From the NCBI GenBank assembly GCA_026418295.1, contig JAOABP010000001.1, positions 186,001 to 250,000 on the forward strand: 64,000 nucleotides of DNA, in the 5' to 3' direction. Position numbers and translations under genes: made by a program. The notes under the pieces were generated by a model. It worked only from the letters and a program-made list of their open reading frames with translations. It was not told the DNA's origin and did not search any database. Every line of letters begins with the position of its first letter. Position 1 is the stretch's first letter. Positions 41,171-54,264 of the stretch are shown here, in pieces. This DNA is from Caldifarciminota bacterium. GTDB taxonomy: Bacteria > Hydrothermota > Tepidihabitantia > Tepidihabitantales > Tepidihabitantaceae.

Positions 41171-44122
41171 ATGAGGAGATTTGTTCTGAGCGGTCTGCTC
41201 GTGCTTTTTGCCTTCGGCTTCGGGATGATCAGCCCGGAGCTGGAACGGCATCTGAGTACGGCGGCAGCTGACCAGAAGCTGCCGGTCCACATCGTCCTGA
41301 AAAACCAGTATGACACCCGGCTCCTTTTCTCGCAGGTTGACGGTCTGAGCCGGCAGGAGCGCCGGGTGCGGGTGGCACAGATTCTCGGCGACTTTGCCCG
41401 GAGAGAGCAGGAGTCCATCCTGCGCTATCTGGCGGAGCGGGAAAAGCAGGGCGAGGTCAAAGACATCCGCCCGATCTGGATTGTCAATGCGGTTGCCTGT
41501 GAGGCGACGCCGGCGGTGATCCGGGAGCTGGCGCAGCGGGCAGATGTCCACTATGTCAACTATGATCTTGCCTGGTGTCCGGACCTGCTGGAGAAGCCGG
41601 GCGCGCCTGCCGAGCCGCAGTATGATGCGACCTGGGGTGTGCGCAAGATAAGGGCGCCTGAGGTCTGGGCGCAGGGCTACACCGGCCAGGGTGTGGTCTG
41701 CGGCCACATTGACACCGGCTGTGACTACACCCATCCGGACCTGGCAGACCACATGTGGGAGGACCCCAACTACCCCTATCACGGCTGGAACTTTGAGGAA
41801 AACAACAACAACCCGATGGATCAGAACGGGCACGGCACCCACACTGCGGGCACGGTTGCCAGTGACGGCACCTCGGGCACCCAGTGCGGGGTGGCGCCTG
41901 ATGCCCGGATCATGGTCTGCCGGGTGCGGACCGTGGCGGACTCGGTGGCGGAGAGCCAGTGCTGGCAGGCGATGCAGTTTGTGGTCTCGCCCCCGCTCTC
42001 ACCGGCCAACGGTGCGGACCTCTACACGATGTCTTTGGGCTGGATGCTCTCCTGGAACCCGCATCAGGCGACCTGGCGTCAGGTGGCAGACAATGTCAAT
42101 GCGGCGGGCGTGATCCAGATCATCGCTGCGGGCAATGAACGGGGACAGGCAACACCGCCGAGTGCGCTCCGCTGTCCGGGCAATGTACCGCCGCCCTGGT
42201 GGAACCCGCAGAACACCGGCACCGGCACCCTTTCCGGCGTAATATCAATCGGCGCCACCGACTCAACCGATGCAATCGCCTACTTCTCCAGCCCCGGACC
42301 GGTTACCTGGCAGAATGTTGCCCCTTATAATGACTACCCCTATCCGCCCGGACTGACCAAACCGGATGTGAGTGCGCCCGGAGTGGCGGTCATCTCCTGC
42401 CGGATCGGCGGCGGTTATCAGAGCATGGACGGCACCTCAATGGCGACCCCGCACACTGCGGGCACGGTCTGCCTGATGCTCTCCAAGAACCCCAACCTGA
42501 CCCCGAGAATGGTGGACTCAATCCTTGAGGTAACCGCAGTGGACCTGGGAACCGCAGGCAAGGACAACGACTTCGGTGCGGGCAGGATTGATGCCTTTGC
42601 TGCGGTTACCGCTGTGCCGAGAGGACCCTACCTCAAGATGCTCCGGTTCTTCCTGGCAGACTCATCAGGCAACACCGACGGCTATATTGACCCGGGCGAG
42701 AGCGCCAGCCTGCGCTTCTGGCTCAAAAACGACGGCAACGCCTTCTGTGCCAACACCCGCGGGATTCTGCGCTCCTTTGACTTCCGGCTGCTGGTCACCG
42801 ACTCCACCGGCTCCTGGGGCACAATCGCACCGCAGGACAGCGCCTACAACCTTACCGACCGCTTCCTCCTCTTTGCCGACACCAGCCTGCGTGCCGGCAC
42901 ACTCCTCCCCTGCACCCTTTATGTTACCGGCGAAAGTGCGGACTATGCAACAAAATTCGGTATTGAACTCCGGGTCGGCATGCCGGGCCAGCTGATCTTT
43001 GACCACGACACCAACAACTGCCGGCTCAGTGTCTCCTGCCTCGGTGCGCTCGGCTATCTGGCACCGGAAAGCACCGGCTCCGGCTTCTGCTATCCCAAGA
43101 CCGCGCCATCAATCCTCACTCACGCCTCACTTGCCTGGGGCACCGACACCCTGTATGTTGTTGACCGCTACTACACCCGGCCCGTTACCGCACCGCCGGA
43201 TACCGAATTCCTGCTGGTTGACAGTCTGCGCAACATCTACCCGCCCCAGAAGGGTCATGAGCACTACCGCGCCTGGTTCTCAGACCGCAACCATCCCCGC
43301 TCAAAACTGCTCGTTGCCAGCCAGAACAGCTATGCGGACGGCACACCCGGCTACCGCGACTTTGTCACCATTGTCTACACGATTCAGAACAACGGCTCCA
43401 CCACCCTCTCCAACTTCTACGCCGGCATCTTTGCCGACTTCACGATTGACACCGCGGGCGACATCTGCGACCAGGACAGCCTGCGCCGTTTCATCTATAT
43501 CACCAGCGCGCAGGACAGCACACCGGTTGCCGGGATTAAAATTCTCGAACCGGACTCCGGAGTCCACCTGACCGCCATTGACCCGGCGATTTACTACCTG
43601 CCTGACTCCTCACTCCGCGATGCCCAGAAATGGCGGATGCTCAGCGGTCAGGTCCGCCTCCCCCGCTCCACCCGGCCCGACAACTGGGCGCTCTGTGCCT
43701 CAGCCGGACCGTTCACCATCAACCCCTTCTCCGCAATCCGGTTTGCGGTCGCCTTTGTCGGCGGTAATACCATCGCCAGTGCGCTCGTCAATGCGGACAG
43801 CGCCCAGCGCTGGTACCGACACTACATCGGCACAAAAGAGCCCGCCACCCCATCCTCACCGCTGGGCTCCGCACTCACCATCTCCCCCAACCCCTTCACC
43901 CGCAACCTCACCATCCGGCTCAATTTGCCCGAGCCCGCACCGGTCCGGCTCACCCTCCACGACATCTCGGGCAGAAAGGTGGCAGAAATCTATCAGGGAA
44001 CGGCACAGCCGGGCACCGGCGAACTCCGCTGGTCCGCAAAAGGGCTGAACCCTGGTGTCTACTTCATCCGGCTCCAGACACCGGGAATGAACACAACCGA
44101 ACGGGCAATACTCGTCCGTTAG
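41171..44122 (+). CDS. Secreted subtilisin-like serine protease with C-terminal sorting domain
   Basis: Exported S8 peptidase of 983 residues. A signal peptide (MRRFVLSGLLVLFAFGFG) and an inhibitor-like propeptide lead into the catalytic domain with the triad in VCGHIDTGCDYTHPDL (Asp), NGHGTHTAGTVAS (His) and MDGTSMATPHTAGTVCL (Ser), and the oxyanion Asn in QIIAAGNERG. A long beta-rich region follows and the last 90 residues are a FlgD-like/Por-secretion tail (ISPNPFTRNLTIRLNLP, LTLHDISGRKVAEIYQG, GLNPGVYFIRLQT). It is thus the clearest candidate cargo for PorU/PorV. Codons end in C noticeably more often than in neighbours, which may reflect high expression. Confidence 0.94.
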   Translation: MRRFVLSGLLVLFAFGFGMISPELERHLSTAAADQKLPVHIVLKNQYDTRLLFSQVDGLSRQERRVRVAQILGDFARREQESILRYLAEREKQGEVKDIRPIWIVNAVACEATPAVIRELAQRADVHYVNYDLAWCPDLLEKPGAPAEPQYDATWGVRKIRAPEVWAQGYTGQGVVCGHIDTGCDYTHPDLADHMWEDPNYPYHGWNFEENNNNPMDQNGHGTHTAGTVASDGTSGTQCGVAPDARIMVCRVRTVADSVAESQCWQAMQFVVSPPLSPANGADLYTMSLGWMLSWNPHQATWRQVADNVNAAGVIQIIAAGNERGQATPPSALRCPGNVPPPWWNPQNTGTGTLSGVISIGATDSTDAIAYFSSPGPVTWQNVAPYNDYPYPPGLTKPDVSAPGVAVISCRIGGGYQSMDGTSMATPHTAGTVCLMLSKNPNLTPRMVDSILEVTAVDLGTAGKDNDFGAGRIDAFAAVTAVPRGPYLKMLRFFLADSSGNTDGYIDPGESASLRFWLKNDGNAFCANTRGILRSFDFRLLVTDSTGSWGTIAPQDSAYNLTDRFLLFADTSLRAGTLLPCTLYVTGESADYATKFGIELRVGMPGQLIFDHDTNNCRLSVSCLGALGYLAPESTGSGFCYPKTAPSILTHASLAWGTDTLYVVDRYYTRPVTAPPDTEFLLVDSLRNIYPPQKGHEHYRAWFSDRNHPRSKLLVASQNSYADGTPGYRDFVTIVYTIQNNGSTTLSNFYAGIFADFTIDTAGDICDQDSLRRFIYITSAQDSTPVAGIKILEPDSGVHLTAIDPAIYYLPDSSLRDAQKWRMLSGQVRLPRSTRPDNWALCASAGPFTINPFSAIRFAVAFVGGNTIASALVNADSAQRWYRHYIGTKEPATPSSPLGSALTISPNPFTRNLTIRLNLPEPAPVRLTLHDISGRKVAEIYQGTAQPGTGELRWSAKGLNPGVYFIRLQTPGMNTTERAILVR

Positions 44123-44455: not shown

Positions 44456-46117
44456 ATGAGAGTTAGCGACCTGATGAGCAGGGTCTACAATGGCGAGGTT
44501 GTAATCCCCGAATTTCAAAGAGGTTTCATCTGGGAACCTGAGGATGTCAGGGAACTCCTAGTTTCGCTTATCGGTGGATATCATGTGGGGAGCATGCTAG
44601 TTATAAGATTAAGCAGCGAAGATTCACCCTTTGGACTCCGGCTGATTGAGGGAGTTGAAAAAGTAAATGAGCAAGCGAAAATAGATTCTACGGTTACCGT
44701 AATTTTAGACGGTCAACAGCGAACTACAGCATTGTTCTACGCTTTACATGGACCGAAAATGCCATTAAAAGGAAGAAAGAGCCCTTATCTTTTCTACCTT
44801 GATTTGAAAAAAGCCCTCTCACAAGACTGGAATGATGCCGTGATTGCAGTCAATGTCAGCGATCACAAAGGGCTTGCCCAAATAAAACAGAACGATTATA
44901 TTGTTCCATTTACATTGCTCAGCGAAAGGGGTTATTTAGGTCTTGGAAATCTAATCCAAAGAATCGTTAATAAATTTGATGCCGAATCTTTTCGAATAAT
45001 AACAGACATCGTCAATGACTTTATTAATCGGGAGATCCACATCATAGAACCACCGCCGAGCACTTTCAAAAGGGATATTAGGGAAGGAAAAGATACCAAA
45101 GATAAAGAAAAGAAAGACACTGAGAAAAACAAGTATAATCTCGAATGGATTGCCGAAACTTTTGAACGGATAAATCGGACCGGAGTCCCTCTCTCGATCT
45201 TTGAACTTCTTACCGCCCGGTTGTACAAGTATGATATCAAACTGCGGGACCTCTTGGAGAATGCCAAAGAAGAATACGAGTTTGCCCGAATTATACATGA
45301 GGAGTATATATTAAAAGTGGTTGCGCTAAAAAGAAATCTTGAATTGAAACGCAGAAGTCTGCTTGAACTTGACCCAGAAAACTTTGAGCGTGACTGGCAA
45401 ACTGCCTGCGATTATCTTCAAATGGCTTACAACAGAATGAAAAATGATTACGGCATTATAAATTTCAAAAAATGGACACCGTACACAACCATGATCGTGC
45501 CCCTCGCTGCTATGCTTTATAGCGTCAGTCCCAAGGGACATAACTCAATGCGTAATTATGAAAAAATTGACAAATGGTACTGGATATCGGTGTTTGGCAA
45601 TAGATACGCTCAGGCTATTGATACAACCTCTTATCAGGATTATATTAGTATGAAGAACTGGTTTGAGGACGACAATAAAGTCCCAGAAACTTTGCGGAAT
45701 TTTGACATTAATACAGTCGAAATAGATGCCGAGAAACAATCCTCGGCAACCTACCGGGGCATCATGAACCTGATAATCTTGAAAGGAGCCCTTGATTTCC
45801 ACACCGGACAGAAATATCACTTTGACCCCGATAAAGTGGAAGACGATCATATCTTTCCTAAATCAATCTTTAATGAGAATAGGATAGCGAACCGAACGCT
45901 CATTGCTGACAACAGACACAAAATAAATAAGAAACCCTCTGAATACTTCAGTGAAAAAGAGAAAAAACTCGGAAGGGAGCAGCTGGTCCAAATCCTTGAA
46001 TCACATCTCATACCCAAGGATGCATTACCCGACTTGCTCAAAGACGACATCGAAAATTTCATGAACAAAAGAAAAGAAGCTATCTTGAATGAAATTAGGG
46101 CTCGAACTAACATATAA
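44456..46117 (+). CDS. DUF262/HNH protein, GmrSD-type (type IV restriction) nuclease
   Basis: Protein of 553 residues. The N-terminal DUF262 (GmrS/ParB-like) domain has IPEFQRGFIW at residues 17-26 and the nucleotide-handling motif LDGQQRTTALFYAL from residue 84. The middle is helical with a Lys/Glu-rich loop. The C-terminal quarter holds an HNH-type nuclease site in DDHIFPKSIF with the later Asn/His in NRTLIADNRHKINKKPSEYF, the DUF1524-like pattern. Fused proteins of this type restrict DNA with modified cytosines or act in phosphorothioate- and BREX-linked defence. AT-rich codon use (AAA, GAA, AGA) contrasts with flanking genes. It is the first gene of the acquired locus and has its own promoter. 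Confidence 0.85.
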   Translation: MRVSDLMSRVYNGEVVIPEFQRGFIWEPEDVRELLVSLIGGYHVGSMLVIRLSSEDSPFGLRLIEGVEKVNEQAKIDSTVTVILDGQQRTTALFYALHGPKMPLKGRKSPYLFYLDLKKALSQDWNDAVIAVNVSDHKGLAQIKQNDYIVPFTLLSERGYLGLGNLIQRIVNKFDAESFRIITDIVNDFINREIHIIEPPPSTFKRDIREGKDTKDKEKKDTEKNKYNLEWIAETFERINRTGVPLSIFELLTARLYKYDIKLRDLLENAKEEYEFARIIHEEYILKVVALKRNLELKRRSLLELDPENFERDWQTACDYLQMAYNRMKNDYGIINFKKWTPYTTMIVPLAAMLYSVSPKGHNSMRNYEKIDKWYWISVFGNRYAQAIDTTSYQDYISMKNWFEDDNKVPETLRNFDINTVEIDAEKQSSATYRGIMNLIILKGALDFHTGQKYHFDPDKVEDDHIFPKSIFNENRIANRTLIADNRHKINKKPSEYFSEKEKKLGREQLVQILESHLIPKDALPDLLKDDIENFMNKRKEAILNEIRARTNI

Positions 46118-46185
46118 ACGGCTACAGAACACTAACAAGAACTGAAAGACCGAAAGCCTGAAACGCAGAACATAGACATCTCAGC

Positions 46186-46213
46186 TTGACTTGGAATCGA
46201 AAAAGTCTATTTT
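46186..46213 (+). promoter_or_regulatory. Former mod promoter, now upstream of the helicase module
   Basis: TTGACT (46186-46191), a 16 bp spacer and TATTTT (46208-46213), 20 nt before the ATG of the methyltransferase remnant. No other promoter is evident before 46457, so it probably drives the membrane protein and helicase genes. Confidence 0.55.
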
Positions 46214-46233
46214 ACTGAAAAAGGTAATCTTAC

Positions 46234-46437
46234 ATGCCGCGGCGACGCAGGGAAACCACCACTCCACCGGTAGATGATTACCGCCACAACCGGAGCGCCC
46301 GGCGCAAAAACAACCCGCCCGCAGGCCTCGCACCAACCTTTACAGCCGCCCACGAGCGTCAGGTTGAGAAATACCAGTATGACCCCCACCTTGACCCCCA
46401 TCTGGTCTGGGCAGGCAAGGCAGAGCATCTGCATTGA
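46234..46437 (+). pseudogene. 5-prime remnant of a type III-like DNA methyltransferase (mod)
   Basis: A 67-codon frame whose product matches the start of type III-like/adenine-specific site-specific DNA methyltransferases: a basic N-terminus, VDDYRH, RRKNNPPAGLAP and especially EKYQYDPHLDPHLVWAGKAE. In intact proteins I know, that last phrase is followed by an HTSFEV-like segment and about 800 further residues with the catalytic domain; here it ends after AEHLH at a stop. The stretch is GC-rich like the chromosome, while sequence on both sides is AT-rich. The break lies near 46431. It is probably still transcribed and could be translated, but cannot methylate DNA. Confidence 0.75.
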
Positions 46438-46456
46438 ATTAGGAGGTGCGTCAGGG

Positions 46457-48643
46457 GTGAATGCATGGCTAATTTTACTCCTGCTTGGAGTTGTACTGAT
46501 AATGTTGGGTGCAACTGCAGTAGTTTTTAGCAGACGGAAACGTCACTCCCACCGACAACCGCCTGTAGCCGGTACGAAACCTAACACTCCAGTAGAGGAA
46601 CCGCCGCTAATTAAGACAGCTTCACAGGCAGAACAACCACTCCAATCAGAACCTACACAAGAATCAAAGTCGCCAAACCAACATTCGGAAAATAATATTA
46701 TTCCACAAGTGCCGGCATGTTTCCCCTCTGCCAATACAGAAGATTTCCGCGCCGGAGAGGCCTCAAATAATACGAGAAAATCAACGAAACCAATCAATCG
46801 TGGAGGAAGACCTCGAGAGTCCCTCGATAAGTACAGCTCCCGTAGACAAAGACAGAGCAGGAAGCCTAAATTTCTGAAACCTGAAATTATTTGCTTCAAG
46901 AAAGAACATCAGTGGATAATTGCAGTTGAGGTACCGGACGAATTCGTTGAAAAACCAGGTCTAACTGTTTTGCAAAACGGATCGCCTCTACAAAAATATG
47001 CGCAGAATGTTAACCTCTGGCTTCTGCAACAGTTATCAGGGGAAATAATCGTAAGTTGGGATGAGGCTGATATAAAACATACCAAAATTAATCTCGGCAA
47101 TGATAACTATCTACTCTTTAAATTGACCGGTCAAAATTCAGATCGGGGTCGACGCATCAAATCTCCTTCCTCTGGTTGGTATTTGGTGATAGTACCGGAA
47201 ACTTGGAAACGGGATGAATCGCGATCTGGACCCCCGCCGGTAGTTCCAGAGGTTGTTTCGATAAGCGACTACCAAGCTCATTTCTTTAATATTGAAAATG
47301 GTATTCCAGAAATTGCATTTCTCCTTCCTGATCGAATGCTTAAAATTATTGAATCCAAAAAGCAAAATTTTTATCTAACAGGACTTTCAATTGATAAATA
47401 CATATGCGACTCAATGGGGCCTCTATTTATAACCCTCCCTGAAATTACTACATCAGATTCTCTAGCGTGGCAAAATGTCCGCACAATCGTCGTTGGCGAA
47501 GAAGGAGGCGGAAGAAGACACTGGCGGATTGAATTTACGCCTTGCCCTAACCGGGAGAAACAAACTTTGCCACCCAAAATTGAGGCAATGAAGAGCGGAT
47601 GGTACTTCATCAGATTCTATAACCAAGATGAAGAACTAATTGAAAGCATGGACTTCAGGTTCGCATCTGGACTTAAAAAAGTGGAAATGACCGAGATGAA
47701 TCCTATACCCTCCCGGGATGGACATAAGCCAATACGTCTGGAATTTCTGCATGAACCAGACTGCTCAGTAAAATTATCCAGTAGTTCTTCAAAAATCCAG
47801 ATCGAGCGCCAACCGAATATTACAATTGCAATTATTCCTCCAGATTCAACATGTGATCAAAGCCGTTGGTCGATACGATCAGGGAACGGTTCTCCGATCG
47901 CAGTAGATATCTTGATAGAAAGAATTTGGTGGACAATCGGAGATGAGGATAATTACCCCAATGACTGGCAAGATCATCCCATCGTCGCAGCACGCACGGA
48001 CTTCAATCCTACCTCAAGTAAAGTCTTGTGGTTACGTCTCCCCAGACATCGGTGGGCAGAGGAAGTGCTGGTGGGATTTGAAAAATCAAGAGCCCGCACC
48101 TACAAAGTGAAAACAAACGAGCAAATCCTCGCCGTTCCGCTTCGCGAATTTACCGATTGTGCGGAAGTAGAGAATCAACAACATGAATGTTGTCTAAGAT
48201 TCTGGATTACAAATCGAAATCTGGAGGCTGAAGTTGTTATCCTCCCCTCTATTACCACGGATAAACATCTAAGGGTAGGGTGGGGTAGAAAAAAAACGGC
48301 CGTAGCGAAAGTGGTGATGCGGAATGGAAAAGGCGAAATTAAAGTCAATGGGAAACCTTCAGATGAATACTTTGTCCAAGCGCCGATCGAAGGCAAGCAA
48401 TTCCTGAAACGCCTGCTTAATCTCAAGGAGGTAAACGCCCTCTTGGCGGAAAAAGCATTGGATGTCGAGGTTAAAGGAAGTAACCCCACCACCACCCAAC
48501 AAATCAAAGCTGTAGCACATGCAATTGCACGCACTTTAATAGACTATGACTACCGCCTGAAACCGATATTAAAACAAGCCGGTTTTGGGGGATGTAGAAT
48601 AACTACGATGCATATTAACCGCGTAAGGAGAAATAAATCATGA
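46457..48643 (+). CDS. Membrane-anchored protein of unknown family, partner of the DUF1998 helicase
   Basis: Protein of 728 residues that I do not recognise. Residues 3-24 (AWLILLLLGVVLIMLGATAV) are a single transmembrane helix followed by a basic RRKRHSHR, so the bulk should lie in the cytoplasm. Residues 30-135 are a polar Pro/Gln/Glu linker ending in a basic patch. The remainder appears to be beta-rich modules, the first starting FKKEHQWIIAVEVPDEF; a short helical domain closes the protein. No nuclease or ATPase motif is seen. Start GTG 46457 has GGAGG 10 bp upstream; a longer frame from 46274 only reads the mod remnant out of frame. Its stop overlaps the helicase start as ATGA. Base composition is AT-rich. 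Confidence 0.8.
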   Translation: MNAWLILLLLGVVLIMLGATAVVFSRRKRHSHRQPPVAGTKPNTPVEEPPLIKTASQAEQPLQSEPTQESKSPNQHSENNIIPQVPACFPSANTEDFRAGEASNNTRKSTKPINRGGRPRESLDKYSSRRQRQSRKPKFLKPEIICFKKEHQWIIAVEVPDEFVEKPGLTVLQNGSPLQKYAQNVNLWLLQQLSGEIIVSWDEADIKHTKINLGNDNYLLFKLTGQNSDRGRRIKSPSSGWYLVIVPETWKRDESRSGPPPVVPEVVSISDYQAHFFNIENGIPEIAFLLPDRMLKIIESKKQNFYLTGLSIDKYICDSMGPLFITLPEITTSDSLAWQNVRTIVVGEEGGGRRHWRIEFTPCPNREKQTLPPKIEAMKSGWYFIRFYNQDEELIESMDFRFASGLKKVEMTEMNPIPSRDGHKPIRLEFLHEPDCSVKLSSSSSKIQIERQPNITIAIIPPDSTCDQSRWSIRSGNGSPIAVDILIERIWWTIGDEDNYPNDWQDHPIVAARTDFNPTSSKVLWLRLPRHRWAEEVLVGFEKSRARTYKVKTNEQILAVPLREFTDCAEVENQQHECCLRFWITNRNLEAEVVILPSITTDKHLRVGWGRKKTAVAKVVMRNGKGEIKVNGKPSDEYFVQAPIEGKQFLKRLLNLKEVNALLAEKALDVEVKGSNPTTTQQIKAVAHAIARTLIDYDYRLKPILKQAGFGGCRITTMHINRVRRNKS

Positions 48644-51600
48644 ACCCGATTGAACTGGCAAGAAAGGTAGAGGAAAGATATCGCAACTATCTTAAAACGA
48701 CATTTTACTTCAAAGACCCGCAACTCAGAAAATCATTTGAAGATGCGCTTGATTCAGGACATTTATGCAAAGGACCTTACATCGAAGCTACGCCGGTATT
48801 CAAACGAGGGAAGAAAACCTCTGAACTGTTTTCGGAACTTCTCGGGTCAAAACCTGATGATGGATTTATAAAAGCCATAGGTGATAGACACCTTTATAAA
48901 CACCAAGAAGAGGCGATCAGAAGAGCATTTGCTGGGAACAATGTCGTCGTCGCTACAGGAACAGGAAGCGGGAAAACCGAAGTCTTTTTCTACCCTATTT
49001 TGCTCCATCTATATCAGGAATTCCGATCGGGCAATCTCGGTCCTGGAGTGCGTGCCTTGATACTCTATCCGATGAACGCACTTGCTAATGATCAAAAGGA
49101 ACGTCTTGGTCAACTTTGCAAGGCACTAAAAGATGCGGGAACAGATTTCCACCTAACCTTTGGACAATATATTGGGGAAACTCCTGAGGATGAAAATGAC
49201 TTCCAGCGGCACGCACATGACCACCTGGATGAACGGCGTGAACAAGGTAACTCCATTTTAAAAGATGGACAAGTTATCCACGGAGAATTGGTTTTGCGTT
49301 CGGAAATGCGACACACACCGCCCCACATTCTCCTCACCAACTACTCAATGCTGGAATATCTACTCCTGCGACCTGACGACAGCCCGCTGTTTGACAATGG
49401 AAACGCCCAATGGTGGAAATTTCTTGTGTTAGATGAAGCCCATCAATACCGCGGCTCACGTGGAATTGAAATGGCGATGCTCATGCGACGTCTCAAACAA
49501 AGACTGCGCGAAGGAGGACGCAAAGAAACGTTCTGTTGTATTGCGACCAGCGCAACACTAGTTGGGCAAGACAGCGATAGAGCTACCGTTGCTCAATTTG
49601 CATCGGCCCTTTTTGGGGAAAAATTCCAGAAGGAAGATATAATTTTAGGTGATACAATTGCTGTTTCTGACCCCGGGCCGAAAGAACTCTCACTTGAAGA
49701 TTACCGCTGGCTGAAAGATTCTATTGATAATATCGATCAGCAAGACAGATCCCGACTCGCTGAAATAGCAAGCCGGGTAGGTGTTCAGCTGTCTGAAAAT
49801 GAAAAGTGGGAGAGAGCAGTCGGCAGGATACTGGAAACTGATGGCAGATCAACAAAGCTTCGACTTATGCTCACCGGTAATCCTGTTGAAGTTCCACACC
49901 TTGCCAATGAACTCTTCCCTAACCAGCCAAAAGAAGAAAGGATTTCGGCATTGACTCAATTGGTCGAACTCTTGATCAAAGCTAAGAATCCAGAATCCGG
50001 TGACCCGATTTTGTCTGCTCGGTACCATATTTTTCTGCGTTCACTGGAGGGTGCTTTTGTCTCTCTTTGGCCTGAAAACAAAGTTTTCCTTGACCGGAAA
50101 ACAATCGGCGAAGAAACATCGGCTTTCGAAGTAGCGTTATGCCGTGAATGTGGACAGCATTACTTTGTAACGAGTAAGAATTTCAAACAAGGAAAGGTTC
50201 AAGAGGCAATCCGGGATCCAAATAACCCTGATTTTGGAGTTACCTTTCTTCGACCTATTGAAACTGACGAGGAAGAAGTCGAAGGTAATGAATCTGACCG
50301 AAGCCAAAACATGCTCTTCCTGTGCATTAAATGCGGAGAAGCTCAGCCGCACCAGCTGACTTGTGGGCATAATAAATTTATCCGTATCGTCAAAGAAGCT
50401 CCGCCCGAAGATGACGATCGTGCCGATCAGTTGGCAAAATGCGGCGTCTGTGGCTATACCGGCGCTGGGCGTGATCCTGTTCGGGAAGTTATCCATGGCA
50501 CCGATGGACCGCATGCGGTGATAGCCACAACCCTCTATCAGAACCTTCCAGAAGAAAGAAGAAAAGTGCTTGCTTTTGCCGACGGACGTCAAGAGGCGGC
50601 TTTCTTTGCTTGGTATCTGGAAAGTTCATATAGAGATATTCTGAACCGCAACTTAATTCTGAGTGCAGTGAAAACGCTCGCACAGCACGCCCCCGAAGGT
50701 CTATCCCTAAAAGAACTCGCTAGAGAACTGTGCCACATTTTTCAAGATCACCAAATCTTTCCTCCTTCCATGGGAGGCCTGGACTTACGCCGCGAAGCTT
50801 GGATCGCACTTTATCGCGAGCTCTTAACTGATGAACAAAGGATTTCTCTGGAGGGTGTTGCGTCGATTCGATGGTCCATAAAGTGGCCCGATTGGTTTAA
50901 GATCCCTGAAATTCTGAAACAACCGCCATGGTCACTTGATGAACGAGAAGCACTGGATCTAATGCTTCTTCTCCTCGACACCATGCGAACCAGCGGTGCG
51001 GTAGAATTGCGGACAGAAAGTGGTATCTCCCTTAACTGGAATGACCTTAACCTGCAAGCATCACAAACGCGTTTCCGTATCGGCGCCCGGGGAAATCCAA
51101 GGGGAGTAAAAAGTTGGGATGGAAAAGGGGGAACACGTGCCCGCTTCCTTGCCAAGCTGTTGATGAAGGAAGATCCAAATATTTCAAAGGACAAAGCTCT
51201 AAAGATCGCGGAAAAAACATTGCAAGCTATCTGGGAATCAACAAAACAGTGCGAAGAAAGAGCTAGTAATAGCAATTCCCGTCTTCTACTCGCTATTAAC
51301 GATGCCCGGAGATTAAATCCTGACTGGTGGCGACTGCATCTAATCGGAGATAACGATACGATCTTTCAATGTAATCTATGCGGCCGTATTCAAGCTCTTT
51401 CCGTGCGCGGAATCTGTGCCCGCCATGGCTGCTCAGGCATGCTGGAACCTAAGCAATTGCGTGACCTACAACCTAATCATTACCGCGAACTTTACAATAC
51501 CGAATTACCAGGTTTGATGAGGGTAGAAGAACACACCGCGCAACTTGACAAAGAAAAGGCACGGGAGTTCCAAAGGGAATTCAGGAATGGCAAGATCCAC

Positions 51601-53337
51601 ATCCTGAGCTGCTCAACTACCTTTGAATTGGGCGTTGACTTGGGCGATCTCGACGTTATCTTTCTGCGTAACGTTCCACCGGAAGCATTCAACTACGCGC
51701 AAAGAGTAGGGCGAGCCGGACGCCGAAGTGGAAATCCGGGGTTTGCAATTACCTTCTGTCGCCGCGCCCCCCATGACCTCTACCATTTCTCTGAACCGGA
51801 ACGGATGCTAAGCGGTAAAGTTCGACCGCCAATTTTGACCCTGTGCAATGAAAAAATCATCACTCGTCATATAGTTGCGCTGACACTTTCTTATTATTTC
51901 CGCACCTTCCCTGAAAGGTTCAAAAATGTGGAAAGCCTGTTTATAGACCTTCAAAATCCCACTGGCGTTACCGATTTCAAATCTTTTCTCAATGAAAACT
52001 GGGATAAGCTGGAAAACTCCATCAGAGCGATTGTTCCCGATAGTCTAATAAATCACCTCGGATTACACGATAGAAGCTTGGTAGACAGAATCACAGGCAC
52101 CGAAAGTAGATTTGCGCTTGCAGAGGCCGAAATCTCAAGTGACTACAAAACAGTAATTCAACTTGAAGAAATCGCCAAAAACAATAAAAAATATTTGGAC
52201 GCGGAATGGGCACGAAAGAGAGCAGAAACAATCGCATCTGAAGACGTACTTTCCTTTCTCTCCCGTAAGACGGTTATCCCGAAATATGGGTTTCCTGTAG
52301 ATGTTGTTGAACTGGATGTTCAAAGAACCCAGCAAAATAAAGAAGCGTTCGAGGTCCTGCTGCAAAGAGATCTAAGCATCGCAATTTCCGAGTTTGCCCC
52401 GACAAGTAAAATCATAGCGAATAAAAAGTTATGGACATCATACGGACTAAAGAAGGTGGCTGAGAAAATCTGGCCAAAGAGATATTACAAGAAATGCACC
52501 AGACACAACATCTTCATCCACTGGGAAGAAGGAAAAGAAGAACCCGCCACGCCGTGTGGCGATAAATTGCATGCCGCCCGCTACATTATTCCCAGGTTCG
52601 GATTTATAACTGACCGTGACGGGCCCGAGGAACCAAAATCACGAACGGTCCGAGTATTCACCACGCGCCCATATTTTGCTGGTCCGTGTTCTTCCCACGA
52701 ATCAGGAGAAATCTTAGTGCCCCAGCAATCACCAGCCATCAGAATAAAGAAGGCATCTCCAGGCCTTATGGTTGTACTTTGCGAGGGGCAACGTGGAAGG
52801 GGTTTTTATATCTGCAGAGAATGTGGCGCAGGGTTCAAAAAACAAACGGCCAGCCATAATGACCCGTATGGACAAACTTGTTCCGGAACACTTGAACAGG
52901 TGTCACTCGGACATGAATTCGTAACCGACGTCTTACAACTTCAATTCCTTGTCCCCCCAAAAAATGATATTGATTCCGTCTGGTTCGCATATGCACTTGC
53001 ATATGCTTTGGTAGAGGGAGCTGCTGAAGAACTTGAAATACCTCCTTCTGATCTTAACGCAACCGTCGCCTACAGTGCACCTGCCCCCGTACTTCCAATA
53101 ATCATTTATGACGATTTGCCGGGCGGAGCGGGTATTGTTGCGCGCTTGGAAAACGAAGTTGTTCTAAGGGCATGCCTTACTGCTGCCCAGAAACGGGTAA
53201 GCGGAGTATGTGGTTGCGACGAGAACACCAGTTGCTACGGATGCTTAAGAAATTACAGAAACCAGTTCGCGCATGAAAAATTGAAACGGGGACCTGTTTA
53301 TCGTTACTTAGAACAGATACTGTCAAGATTGAAATAG
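48640..53337 (+). CDS. Large DEAD/DEAH helicase with DUF1998 zinc-binding C-terminus
   Basis: Superfamily 2 helicase of 1565 residues. The N-terminus has LCKGPYIEATPVFKRG, then a Q-like motif LYKHQEEAIRRAF, Walker A TGTGSGKTE at 106-114, ILYPMNALANDQ (Ia), VLDEAHQYRGS (DEAH, near 265), CIATSATLVG (III), STTFELGVDLGDLDVIFL (V) and NYAQRVGRAGRRSGN (VI, near 1025). Several CxxC zinc ribbons are inserted (CRECGQ, CIKCGE, CGVCGY, CNLCGR). The end is a DUF1998 module with CDENTSCYGCLRNYRNQFAH. MrfA-type helicases, DISARM DrmA/DrmB and Druantia DruE share parts of this plan, and a two-gene partnership with a large unknown protein recalls Druantia type III. Exact family assignment needs a profile search. 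AT-rich; ends the acquired module. Confidence 0.92.
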   Translation: MNPIELARKVEERYRNYLKTTFYFKDPQLRKSFEDALDSGHLCKGPYIEATPVFKRGKKTSELFSELLGSKPDDGFIKAIGDRHLYKHQEEAIRRAFAGNNVVVATGTGSGKTEVFFYPILLHLYQEFRSGNLGPGVRALILYPMNALANDQKERLGQLCKALKDAGTDFHLTFGQYIGETPEDENDFQRHAHDHLDERREQGNSILKDGQVIHGELVLRSEMRHTPPHILLTNYSMLEYLLLRPDDSPLFDNGNAQWWKFLVLDEAHQYRGSRGIEMAMLMRRLKQRLREGGRKETFCCIATSATLVGQDSDRATVAQFASALFGEKFQKEDIILGDTIAVSDPGPKELSLEDYRWLKDSIDNIDQQDRSRLAEIASRVGVQLSENEKWERAVGRILETDGRSTKLRLMLTGNPVEVPHLANELFPNQPKEERISALTQLVELLIKAKNPESGDPILSARYHIFLRSLEGAFVSLWPENKVFLDRKTIGEETSAFEVALCRECGQHYFVTSKNFKQGKVQEAIRDPNNPDFGVTFLRPIETDEEEVEGNESDRSQNMLFLCIKCGEAQPHQLTCGHNKFIRIVKEAPPEDDDRADQLAKCGVCGYTGAGRDPVREVIHGTDGPHAVIATTLYQNLPEERRKVLAFADGRQEAAFFAWYLESSYRDILNRNLILSAVKTLAQHAPEGLSLKELARELCHIFQDHQIFPPSMGGLDLRREAWIALYRELLTDEQRISLEGVASIRWSIKWPDWFKIPEILKQPPWSLDEREALDLMLLLLDTMRTSGAVELRTESGISLNWNDLNLQASQTRFRIGARGNPRGVKSWDGKGGTRARFLAKLLMKEDPNISKDKALKIAEKTLQAIWESTKQCEERASNSNSRLLLAINDARRLNPDWWRLHLIGDNDTIFQCNLCGRIQALSVRGICARHGCSGMLEPKQLRDLQPNHYRELYNTELPGLMRVEEHTAQLDKEKAREFQREFRNGKIHILSCSTTFELGVDLGDLDVIFLRNVPPEAFNYAQRVGRAGRRSGNPGFAITFCRRAPHDLYHFSEPERMLSGKVRPPILTLCNEKIITRHIVALTLSYYFRTFPERFKNVESLFIDLQNPTGVTDFKSFLNENWDKLENSIRAIVPDSLINHLGLHDRSLVDRITGTESRFALAEAEISSDYKTVIQLEEIAKNNKKYLDAEWARKRAETIASEDVLSFLSRKTVIPKYGFPVDVVELDVQRTQQNKEAFEVLLQRDLSIAISEFAPTSKIIANKKLWTSYGLKKVAEKIWPKRYYKKCTRHNIFIHWEEGKEEPATPCGDKLHAARYIIPRFGFITDRDGPEEPKSRTVRVFTTRPYFAGPCSSHESGEILVPQQSPAIRIKKASPGLMVVLCEGQRGRGFYICRECGAGFKKQTASHNDPYGQTCSGTLEQVSLGHEFVTDVLQLQFLVPPKNDIDSVWFAYALAYALVEGAAEELEIPPSDLNATVAYSAPAPVLPIIIYDDLPGGAGIVARLENEVVLRACLTAAQKRVSGVCGCDENTSCYGCLRNYRNQFAHEKLKRGPVYRYLEQILSRLK

Positions 53338-53540
53338 TATAACTGGGATAAATTCACTTCTCCAATTCTTTGCCTCGATAATCAGTGAATCTATTGTTCG
53401 TATGAACCAAGCAAGATATCAACTTTTTAATACTTAAAATTAAAGTACTAATCTTTATTTTCTCTTACAAAGCTTTAGACGAATTTTCAGTTGCCCCAAG
53501 ATAAACTCCACTGCTAAGTATTTGAACCGCACACTATTTT
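53338..53540. other. AT-rich spacer after the helicase gene
   Basis: About 200 bp without a gene, AT-rich like the module. It ends where GC-rich sequence of the res remnant begins, so the right junction of the replacement lies at its end. No terminal repeat shared with the left junction near 46431 is visible. Confidence 0.55.
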
Positions 53541-53666
53541 ATGAACACACATAGATGGGTCCAGGCGGTCAACCGGCATGGCGGGTTCGGAAAATGGGCG
53601 TTTACGGTCTGCCGGCTGCCTGTCAGACTGGCAGAGAAACTGAAATCAGCAGTCAGCAACCGCTGA
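53541..53666 (+). pseudogene. 3-prime remnant of a type III-like restriction subunit (res)
   Basis: A 41-codon GC-rich frame. Its product MNTHRWVQAVNRHGGFGKWA and following FTVCRLPVRLAEKL look like the extreme C-terminus of type III-like Res helicase-nucleases (also BPTD_3080-type), which end in a RWVxAVNNHGGFGRWAF-like phrase. The frame is closed by a stop 7 codons before the ATG, so the rest of the gene is gone. Together with the mod remnant at 46234-46437 it gives the two outer ends of a mod-res pair with the same orientation and order. Confidence 0.65.
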
Positions 53667-53709
53667 GCAGACCCGGATTCAAGCAAAATTCAGAAAGATG
53701 AAGTTGAGC

Positions 53710-54264
53710 TTAGGCTGAAAACGGATTTGATTTCACCCCTGCCCCGAGTTCCCAGCCCGCCTCAAGCGCTCTGGTGTTGAGGTCCAGATACTGTTTCGGC
53801 ACCCGGCTGGAGACCGCCTTTTTGAGCGACTCGAGGCTGACCAGCCCGGTAATCTTGGCAATCGCACCGAGGGTGAGGATGTTGGTGAACAGTTCCCTGC
53901 CCAGTTTTTCCCGGGCGGTCCGGGAAAGGGGCAGGCAGACCGTCTGGGGATGGGGACACTCCCGGACATAGAACTCGTCAATGATTGCCAGGCCGCGGTG
54001 TTTGAGGTCGGGGAGGTATTTGTCAATCGCCTGCTGGCTCAGACCGACAAGCAGGTCCAGTTTCCGGCATTTGGGATAGAGGATCGGACCGTCCGCAAGG
54101 ATGACATCAGCCCGTGAGGCACCGCCCCGGGCTTCCGGTCCGTAGCTCTGGGTCTGGACCGCATACCAGCCCTCATAAACCCCGGCCGCCTCGGCGAGGA
54201 TGACACTTGCCAGAATCACCCCCTGTCCGCCGGTGCCCGCAAGCCGGATTTCAAATTTCTTCAT
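53710..54264 (-). CDS. korC: 2-oxoacid:ferredoxin oxidoreductase gamma subunit
   Basis: Gamma subunit, 184 residues, last gene of the kor operon. It begins FEIRLAGTGGQGVILASVILAE, the hallmark GxGGQG motif, and has YGPEARGGASRADVIL and the later IDEFYVREC. With KorA, KorB and KorD it oxidatively decarboxylates a 2-oxoacid, probably 2-oxoglutarate, to the acyl-CoA and reduces ferredoxin, or runs in reverse for CO2 fixation. It overlaps korB by 4 bp. Confidence 0.93.
   Translation of the reverse strand: MKKFEIRLAGTGGQGVILASVILAEAAGVYEGWYAVQTQSYGPEARGGASRADVILADGPILYPKCRKLDLLVGLSQQAIDKYLPDLKHRGLAIIDEFYVRECPHPQTVCLPLSRTAREKLGRELFTNILTLGAIAKITGLVSLESLKKAVSSRVPKQYLDLNTRALEAGWELGAGVKSNPFSA

Follow-up and report, generated by a model that had tools for sequence, protein, structure and literature searches.

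An Ig-like protein with exchangeable C-terminal modules paired with a DruE-like helicase: a rare two-gene cassette, probably anti-viral

Introduction

In Druantia type III, one of the described defence systems that rely on a helicase of the DruE type, the sensor has been inferred to be DruH, a fast-evolving protein bearing Ig-like domains, with DruE acting as the effector, a helicase loading onto 3' single-stranded DNA (PMC13192584). The interaction between DruH and DruE is needed in this system (PMC13316683). In addition, a survey of the YprA family delineated a III-like branch whose helicases most often come without a nuclease (PMC12458937); the text of that survey mentions neither ribosomal domains, nor transmembrane (TM) domains, nor DruH.

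The stretch of DNA considered here (hereafter the window) comprises 64,000 nucleotides of a Caldifarciminota bacterium genome (GCA_026418295.1, contig JAOABP010000001.1, positions 186,001 to 250,000). A sequence-only reading of it had singled out two neighbouring genes as a candidate defence module made of a membrane-anchored protein and a DUF1998 helicase. The analysis described below indicates that this pair is probably a rare anti-virus cassette, in which the first protein (the partner) joins a tandem Ig-like core to a C-terminal domain that differs among relatives.

The Gene Pair and Its Genomic Site

The features of the locus are collected in Table 1. The gene coordinates confirm the ATGA overlap noticed earlier, which is predicted to couple translation of the two genes, and both share an AT-rich composition, as had also been remarked (GC 0.43-0.48 across ~44-54 kb, with the AT-rich stretch lying at about 44.2-53.6 kb, against 0.55-0.62 around). 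The longest frame of the partner gene (46274-48643, from ATG 46274) would give a 789-residue product. This reading was rejected in favour of the GTG, because the latter is preceded by a TAGGAGG and has a homologous start in relatives, and because the extra 5' codons (the first ~60) overlap a degraded methylase gene start.

Table 1. Features of the gene pair and its surroundings (positions in the window)
Feature	Position	Strand	Remarks
Partner ("sensor") gene	46457..48643	+	728 aa from GTG; relatives' starts homologous
Shine-Dalgarno-like TAGGAGG	46440-46446		upstream of partner-gene GTG 46457
N-terminal TM helix of partner	46463..46537	+	residues ~3-27; AlphaFold2 model (helix 2-27), alignment
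RGGRPR basic motif of partner	46799..46816	+	residues 115-120; alignments
Tandem Ig-like beta-sandwich core of partner	46874..48250	+	residues ~140-598; AlphaFold2 models, Foldseek
uS9-like C-terminal domain of partner	48284..48586	+	residues 610-710; PF00380, Foldseek, native-S9 alignment
ATGA stop/start overlap of the two genes	48640..48643	+	from gene coordinates
Helicase gene	48640..53337	+	1565 aa; DruE-like/YprA-family SF2; Pfam DEAD, Helicase_C, MZB
MZB/DUF1998 (MrfA Zn-binding) domain	52996..53247	+	helicase residues 1453-1536; Pfam PF09369, 8.6e-10
Stretch missing at the same site in G001 (same genus)	46118..53722	.	holds the pair and the methylase remnant

The site was compared with that in the genome of a congener, G001. 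The left flank of the island, a subtilisin-like protease gene whose product bears a sorting-type domain at its C-terminus (41171-44122), is 92% identical in G001, where it is followed by a GmrSD gene 71% identical to that of the window; the right flank (92% DNA identity) comes next, with nothing in between. Neither the helicase pair nor the methylase remnant occurs at this site in G001. Because G001 retains both flanks and GmrSD without the pair, the two genes behave as a single unit of gain or loss, which supports the earlier suggestion that they came in together.

The GmrSD-type gene of the window (44456-46117; DUF262 plus HNH) is type IV restriction-like and shared with the congener at the same site. 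Its solitary presence in G001 implies that it took no part in the arrival of the pair, and it is an older, separate resident that predates the helicase pair. GmrSD was likewise rejected as a third component of the system, for it stands alone at this site in G001 and the GmrSD of another locus (L018) is only distantly related. The methylase remnant (46234-46437) is a 67-codon frame that matches the starts of DNA methylase genes (E 6e-9), with relatives in Rhodothermus, Thermus and Planktothrix plasmids, and is cut just before the partner gene. It looks like a leftover gene start, the scar of a gene replacement.

Relatives, Pairing and Context

A profile search restricted to the partner core identified the partner in 12 other genomes, belonging to WOR-3, Bacteroidota, Omnitrophota, a putative archaeon and one unassigned organism, so that the comparisons below draw on just thirteen genomes in all, most relatives being metagenome-assembled. 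A single scan of 85,000 species genomes yielded six loci, among them L018, the one relative found in the phylum of the window (147 genomes searched, hence 2/147 with the window genome itself); one further locus was found in Omnitrophota, and the Bacteroidota group supplied another five. No partner homologue was present in 2.9 million viral contigs, nor in phage or plasmid records, and therefore no mobile carrier was seen. Because the contig behind the archaeal assignment (L014) is 10.7 kb long and bears, apart from the pair, just an ATPase gene, it may have been mis-binned; the exchange of modules discussed below is independent of this label.

In 10 of the 11 loci with readable downstream DNA (window, L013, L014, L015, L016, L018, L033, L034, L035, L036 and L068) a DruE-like helicase lies directly downstream of the partner, the helicases of L015 and L033 being readable only to the contig end. 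Two other contigs, L017 and L067, are too short to show what follows the partner. The exception is L034 (L034:3-1658, G681), where no helicase follows the partner and an integrase-like gene is found nearby. The proposal of a two-gene module is upheld by this conserved pairing. Most loci are located among restriction or defence genes: GmrSD in the window, a Type ISP system and GmrSD in L018, methylases in L016, an HNH/Mrr_N nuclease and methylases in L017, a TIR protein and HsdM in L035. The L013 and L036 loci lie among housekeeping genes. The TIR-domain gene of L035 (L035:4676-5866) sits directly upstream of the pair relative, with genes for a recombinase and for a type I methylase next to it.

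The Helicase

The sequence-only reading had credited the second protein with every SF2 motif, zinc ribbons and a DUF1998 end. Sequence and Pfam analyses agree: the full motif set is present (ATGTGSGKTE, DEAH, SAT, QRVGRAGR), together with many CxxC pairs and the DUF1998 domain. The suspected kinship with DruE was corroborated by PADLOC, whose best profiles were those of DruE (DruE1, 2.3e-190; DruE3, 7e-156), and insertions of the DruE type are found in the chain. No PLD or other nuclease domain was detected by Pfam, the chain ending just after MZB, and its length compares with 2002-2115 residues for reference DruE3 proteins. From these features the protein can be assigned to the DruE/YprA family of SF2 enzymes, as a member predicted to carry no nuclease.

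A phylogeny was built with six DruE3, three DruE1-like, two cyanobacterial and two ARMADA helicases as comparison set. The seven complete helicases of the family, 50-68% identical to that of the window, form one clade (100/100) apart from all of these; the six DruE3 proteins are themselves monophyletic at 100/100. Over any aligned stretch, identity between the family and DruE of types I and III, the cyanobacterial DruE-like proteins or the ARMADA helicases does not exceed ~31%. Within the clade, the helicases of the window and L013, both from systems whose partner ends in a uS9 domain, group together (98/98).

The Partner Protein

In an AlphaFold2 model of the partner, computed from six relatives (pLDDT 73 overall, mostly 75-90 in the folded part), an N-terminal helix leads through a disordered linker to an all-beta core, and the chain closes with a compact alpha/beta part. 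In Foldseek searches the core matched tandem Ig arrays (titin, OTK, NCAM, complement, GhpA), and a second model, with an Omnitrophota relative as query, again returned Ig arrays and showed a five-helix tail. The model thus supports the single TM helix and large beta-rich part read earlier from the sequence. The beta-rich part had also been considered of unknown family, a view that does not hold, as this part is made up of Ig-like domains arrayed in tandem, after which comes a Ribosomal_S9 domain. The linker extending from the TM helix to ~residue 137 is probably disordered (pLDDT < 50). The RGGRPR motif, invariant or nearly so in the alignments of TM-bearing partners, resembles an AT-hook when judged by eye.

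The partner core is 24-47% identical to that of the window across relatives, versus 43-68% for the helicase, meaning that the partner diverges faster. A comparison of the 728-residue protein with DruH had been proposed as a check, and no sequence match emerged: PADLOC gave no DruH hit at E<1, while E. coli DruH scored E=0 with the same models, and hhalign reached probabilities of 0.2% against one DruH and 9.4% against six DruH proteins, the faint alignment in the latter case (9%) falling within the Ig regions. The PDB sequence search was equally unsupportive. DruH homology thus found no support in these searches, and the partner, as far as its sequence tells, is not DruH and would define a new partner family.

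Exchangeable C-Terminal Tails

A feature overlooked in the sequence-only reading is that the last ~100 residues of the partner adopt a truncated fold of ribosomal protein uS9. Pfam recognized Ribosomal_S9 (PF00380; 6.9e-17), and Foldseek aligned the domain with the uS9 of numerous ribosomes at a TM-score of 0.6-0.74 on the target. The fused domain keeps the basic GRKKTA and IAR segments. As a complete ribosomal S9 it fails, since just profile positions 1-94 of 121 are covered and the C-terminal tail of ribosomal uS9 is missing. The possibility that it is the only S9 of the cell was discarded because a separate full rpsI exists in the window genome (C8:498769), as in every other genome checked. 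A recent capture of the host gene was also rejected, given that the fused domain is only 29% identical to host S9, against 41-45% among the fused uS9s themselves.

Whereas the partner core is common to all members, their C-terminal tails are not homologous to one another. The window, L013 and L014 carry uS9. Pfam and comparison with the PDB identified eL13 in L015/L016, L018 and L033, an assignment that is strong in L016 (5e-9 to eL13 chains in the PDB), moderate in L018 and weak alone in L033; the tail of L068 was read by eye as eL13. L036 and its close relative L067 end in C2H2-type zinc fingers and the L034 partner has a cysteine-rich end. The eL13 tail occurs in WOR-3 and Bacteroidota members. 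To our knowledge, bacteria have no eL13 ribosomal protein.

The closest view of an exchange is provided by L014 and L018, whose helicases are 78% identical over their length and whose partner cores are 72% identical. Partner identity runs to about residue 658 of L014 and then breaks abruptly, uS9 following in one and eL13 in the other. In the helicase tree, moreover, the uS9-tailed L014 sits inside the eL13-tailed group at 100/100. Taken together, these sequence comparisons identify the partner C-terminus as a swappable cassette, which may hold uS9, eL13, zinc fingers or a helical domain. The helical domain is shared by L017 and L035 (2e-9 between them) and was modelled as a five-helix structure; it had no match by Pfam, PDB sequence search or Foldseek, and is apparently another exchangeable tail.

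Proposed Function and Alternatives

The pairing of the genes, the domain make-up of their products, the exchange of modules, the family of the helicase and its lack of a nuclease are results of sequence analysis or modelling, from which we infer by analogy the defence function, the docking of the partner on the helicase, the ligand of the tail and the outcome. On balance, the pair would be a Druantia-III-like two-component anti-virus system, with the partner as modular sensor or adaptor and the helicase as effector. The conserved element would be the DruE-like helicase, which on replicating invader DNA presumably loads at 3' single-stranded regions. The partner would work as a modular receptor, in which an N-terminal anchor of variable kind (TM helix or coiled coil) is joined by a long flexible linker, usually bearing GGRPR, to a conserved tandem Ig-like body expected to dock on the helicase; an exchanged tail would carry specificity by recognising an infection-specific nucleic acid or ribonucleoprotein. 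After recognition, the partner may load or activate the helicase, which would then block the invader DNA by unwinding or displacement, perhaps handing it to host nucleases. The roles given to the Ig core and the tail follow the analogy with DruH sensing, DruE effector action and the need for the DruH-DruE interaction. Recognition of nucleic acid or ribonucleoprotein is favoured because the identified tails (uS9, eL13, zinc fingers) are nucleic-acid-binding folds and the basic GGRPR precedes the core. Tentatively, the pair could represent a previously undescribed polymorphic immune receptor of prokaryotes, an Ig-like scaffold with a DruE-like helicase that acquires specificity through swapped C-terminal modules such as uS9 and eL13, serving to read an infection-specific RNA, ribonucleoprotein or DNA, or as baits. 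Tails exchanged on a near-constant scaffold and helicase (systems 72-78% identical) offer a direct handle on sensing and, if this interpretation is true, would show ribosomal-protein folds put to a second and unusual use, one of them being of eukaryote/archaea type and carried by bacteria.

Some weight, although clearly a minor share, must be given to a far-diverged Druantia III (III-B-like) whose partner is a DruH beyond sequence recognition. The order of the genes with the partner first, their translational overlap and the DruE-family helicase would all fit, DruH also has tandem Ig-like domains (PMC13192584), the III-like branch is often nuclease-free (PMC12458937), and the faint hhalign alignment lies within Ig regions. 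However, PADLOC models that detect genuine DruH so readily found none here, DruH is ~1100 residues long, has a helical C-terminus that bears a nuclease and has not been reported to contain a TM or ribosomal domain, and the window helicase is not within the sampled DruE3 clade. The tails might instead be decoys of host ribosomal proteins, so that a phage factor binding or attacking ribosomes would engage uS9 or eL13 and trigger the helicase. Both are genuine ribosomal-protein folds, the full rpsI found in every genome checked would leave the fused copy free as bait, and in the fused uS9 the tail extending to the decoding site is missing. We regard this as unlikely: eL13 is not a bacterial ribosomal protein and still forms the tail of partners from WOR-3 and Bacteroidota, zinc fingers are found in further members, and the fused uS9s are closer to each other than to host S9.

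The sequence-only reading had favoured a membrane tether that keeps the helicase where phage DNA enters. A TM helix is indeed present in seven members (window, L013, L014, L016, L017, L018 and L035), but it is absent from the partners of L033, L036, L067 and L068, with L036 and L067 having a coiled coil instead, and L033, L036 and L068 nevertheless possess the same helicase. Anchoring would accordingly be optional on account of these at least four relatives, and tethering at DNA entry is rather improbable as the core mechanism. A DNA-repair pair similar to MrfA/MrfB, suggested by the MrfA Zn-binding domain at the end of the helicase, is hardly credible in view of the patchy distribution (in the phylum and between congeners), the defence-gene neighbours, the fast evolution of the partner and the DruE-type insertions.

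Comparison with Known Systems

What ARMADA, DISARM and Druantia I/II have in common with the window pair is the helicase core of the YprA family together with DUF1998. Neither a RapA/BrxHII-like helicase nor a PglX-like methylase, DrmC, DruA or DruB-D was found beside the helicase. The ARMADA helicases separate from the family at 100/100, and ARMADA companions are not adjacent in the window or the complete loci. As regards Druantia I/II, the gene upstream of the helicase in 10/11 loci encodes the Ig-like partner instead of DruA-D or DruM/F/G companions. In DISARM the corresponding parts are split into DrmA and DrmB, whereas here helicase and DUF1998 share one chain, whose match to DrmA is only 9e-17. 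With ribosomal uS9 and eL13 the tails share the fold and basic core residues (GRKKTA and IAR in uS9), and they differ by their fusion to a ~600-residue Ig-like protein and, for uS9, by the lack of the rRNA/P-site tail.

Compared with Druantia III, the window partner is shorter than DruH and without detectable DruH sequence homology, members of its family frequently bear a TM helix and have uS9, eL13 or zinc-finger modules as exchangeable ends, and the helicase family falls outside the clade of the six sampled DruE3 proteins; relative to type III-A, the 1565-residue helicase lacks the C-terminal PLD nuclease. The III-like/III-B systems, compared by published description only, have a DruE-like helicase that is mostly nuclease-free, as in the present case. 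Druantia III and the window pair nonetheless share the two-gene layout with the partner first and the genes overlapping or adjacent, an SF2 helicase of the DruE family that has zinc modules and DUF1998, and a tandem-Ig partner that diverges faster than the helicase (PMC13192584). The layout had already been said to recall Druantia III, and this system, with its fast-evolving Ig-like DruH, is indeed the nearest functional analogue.
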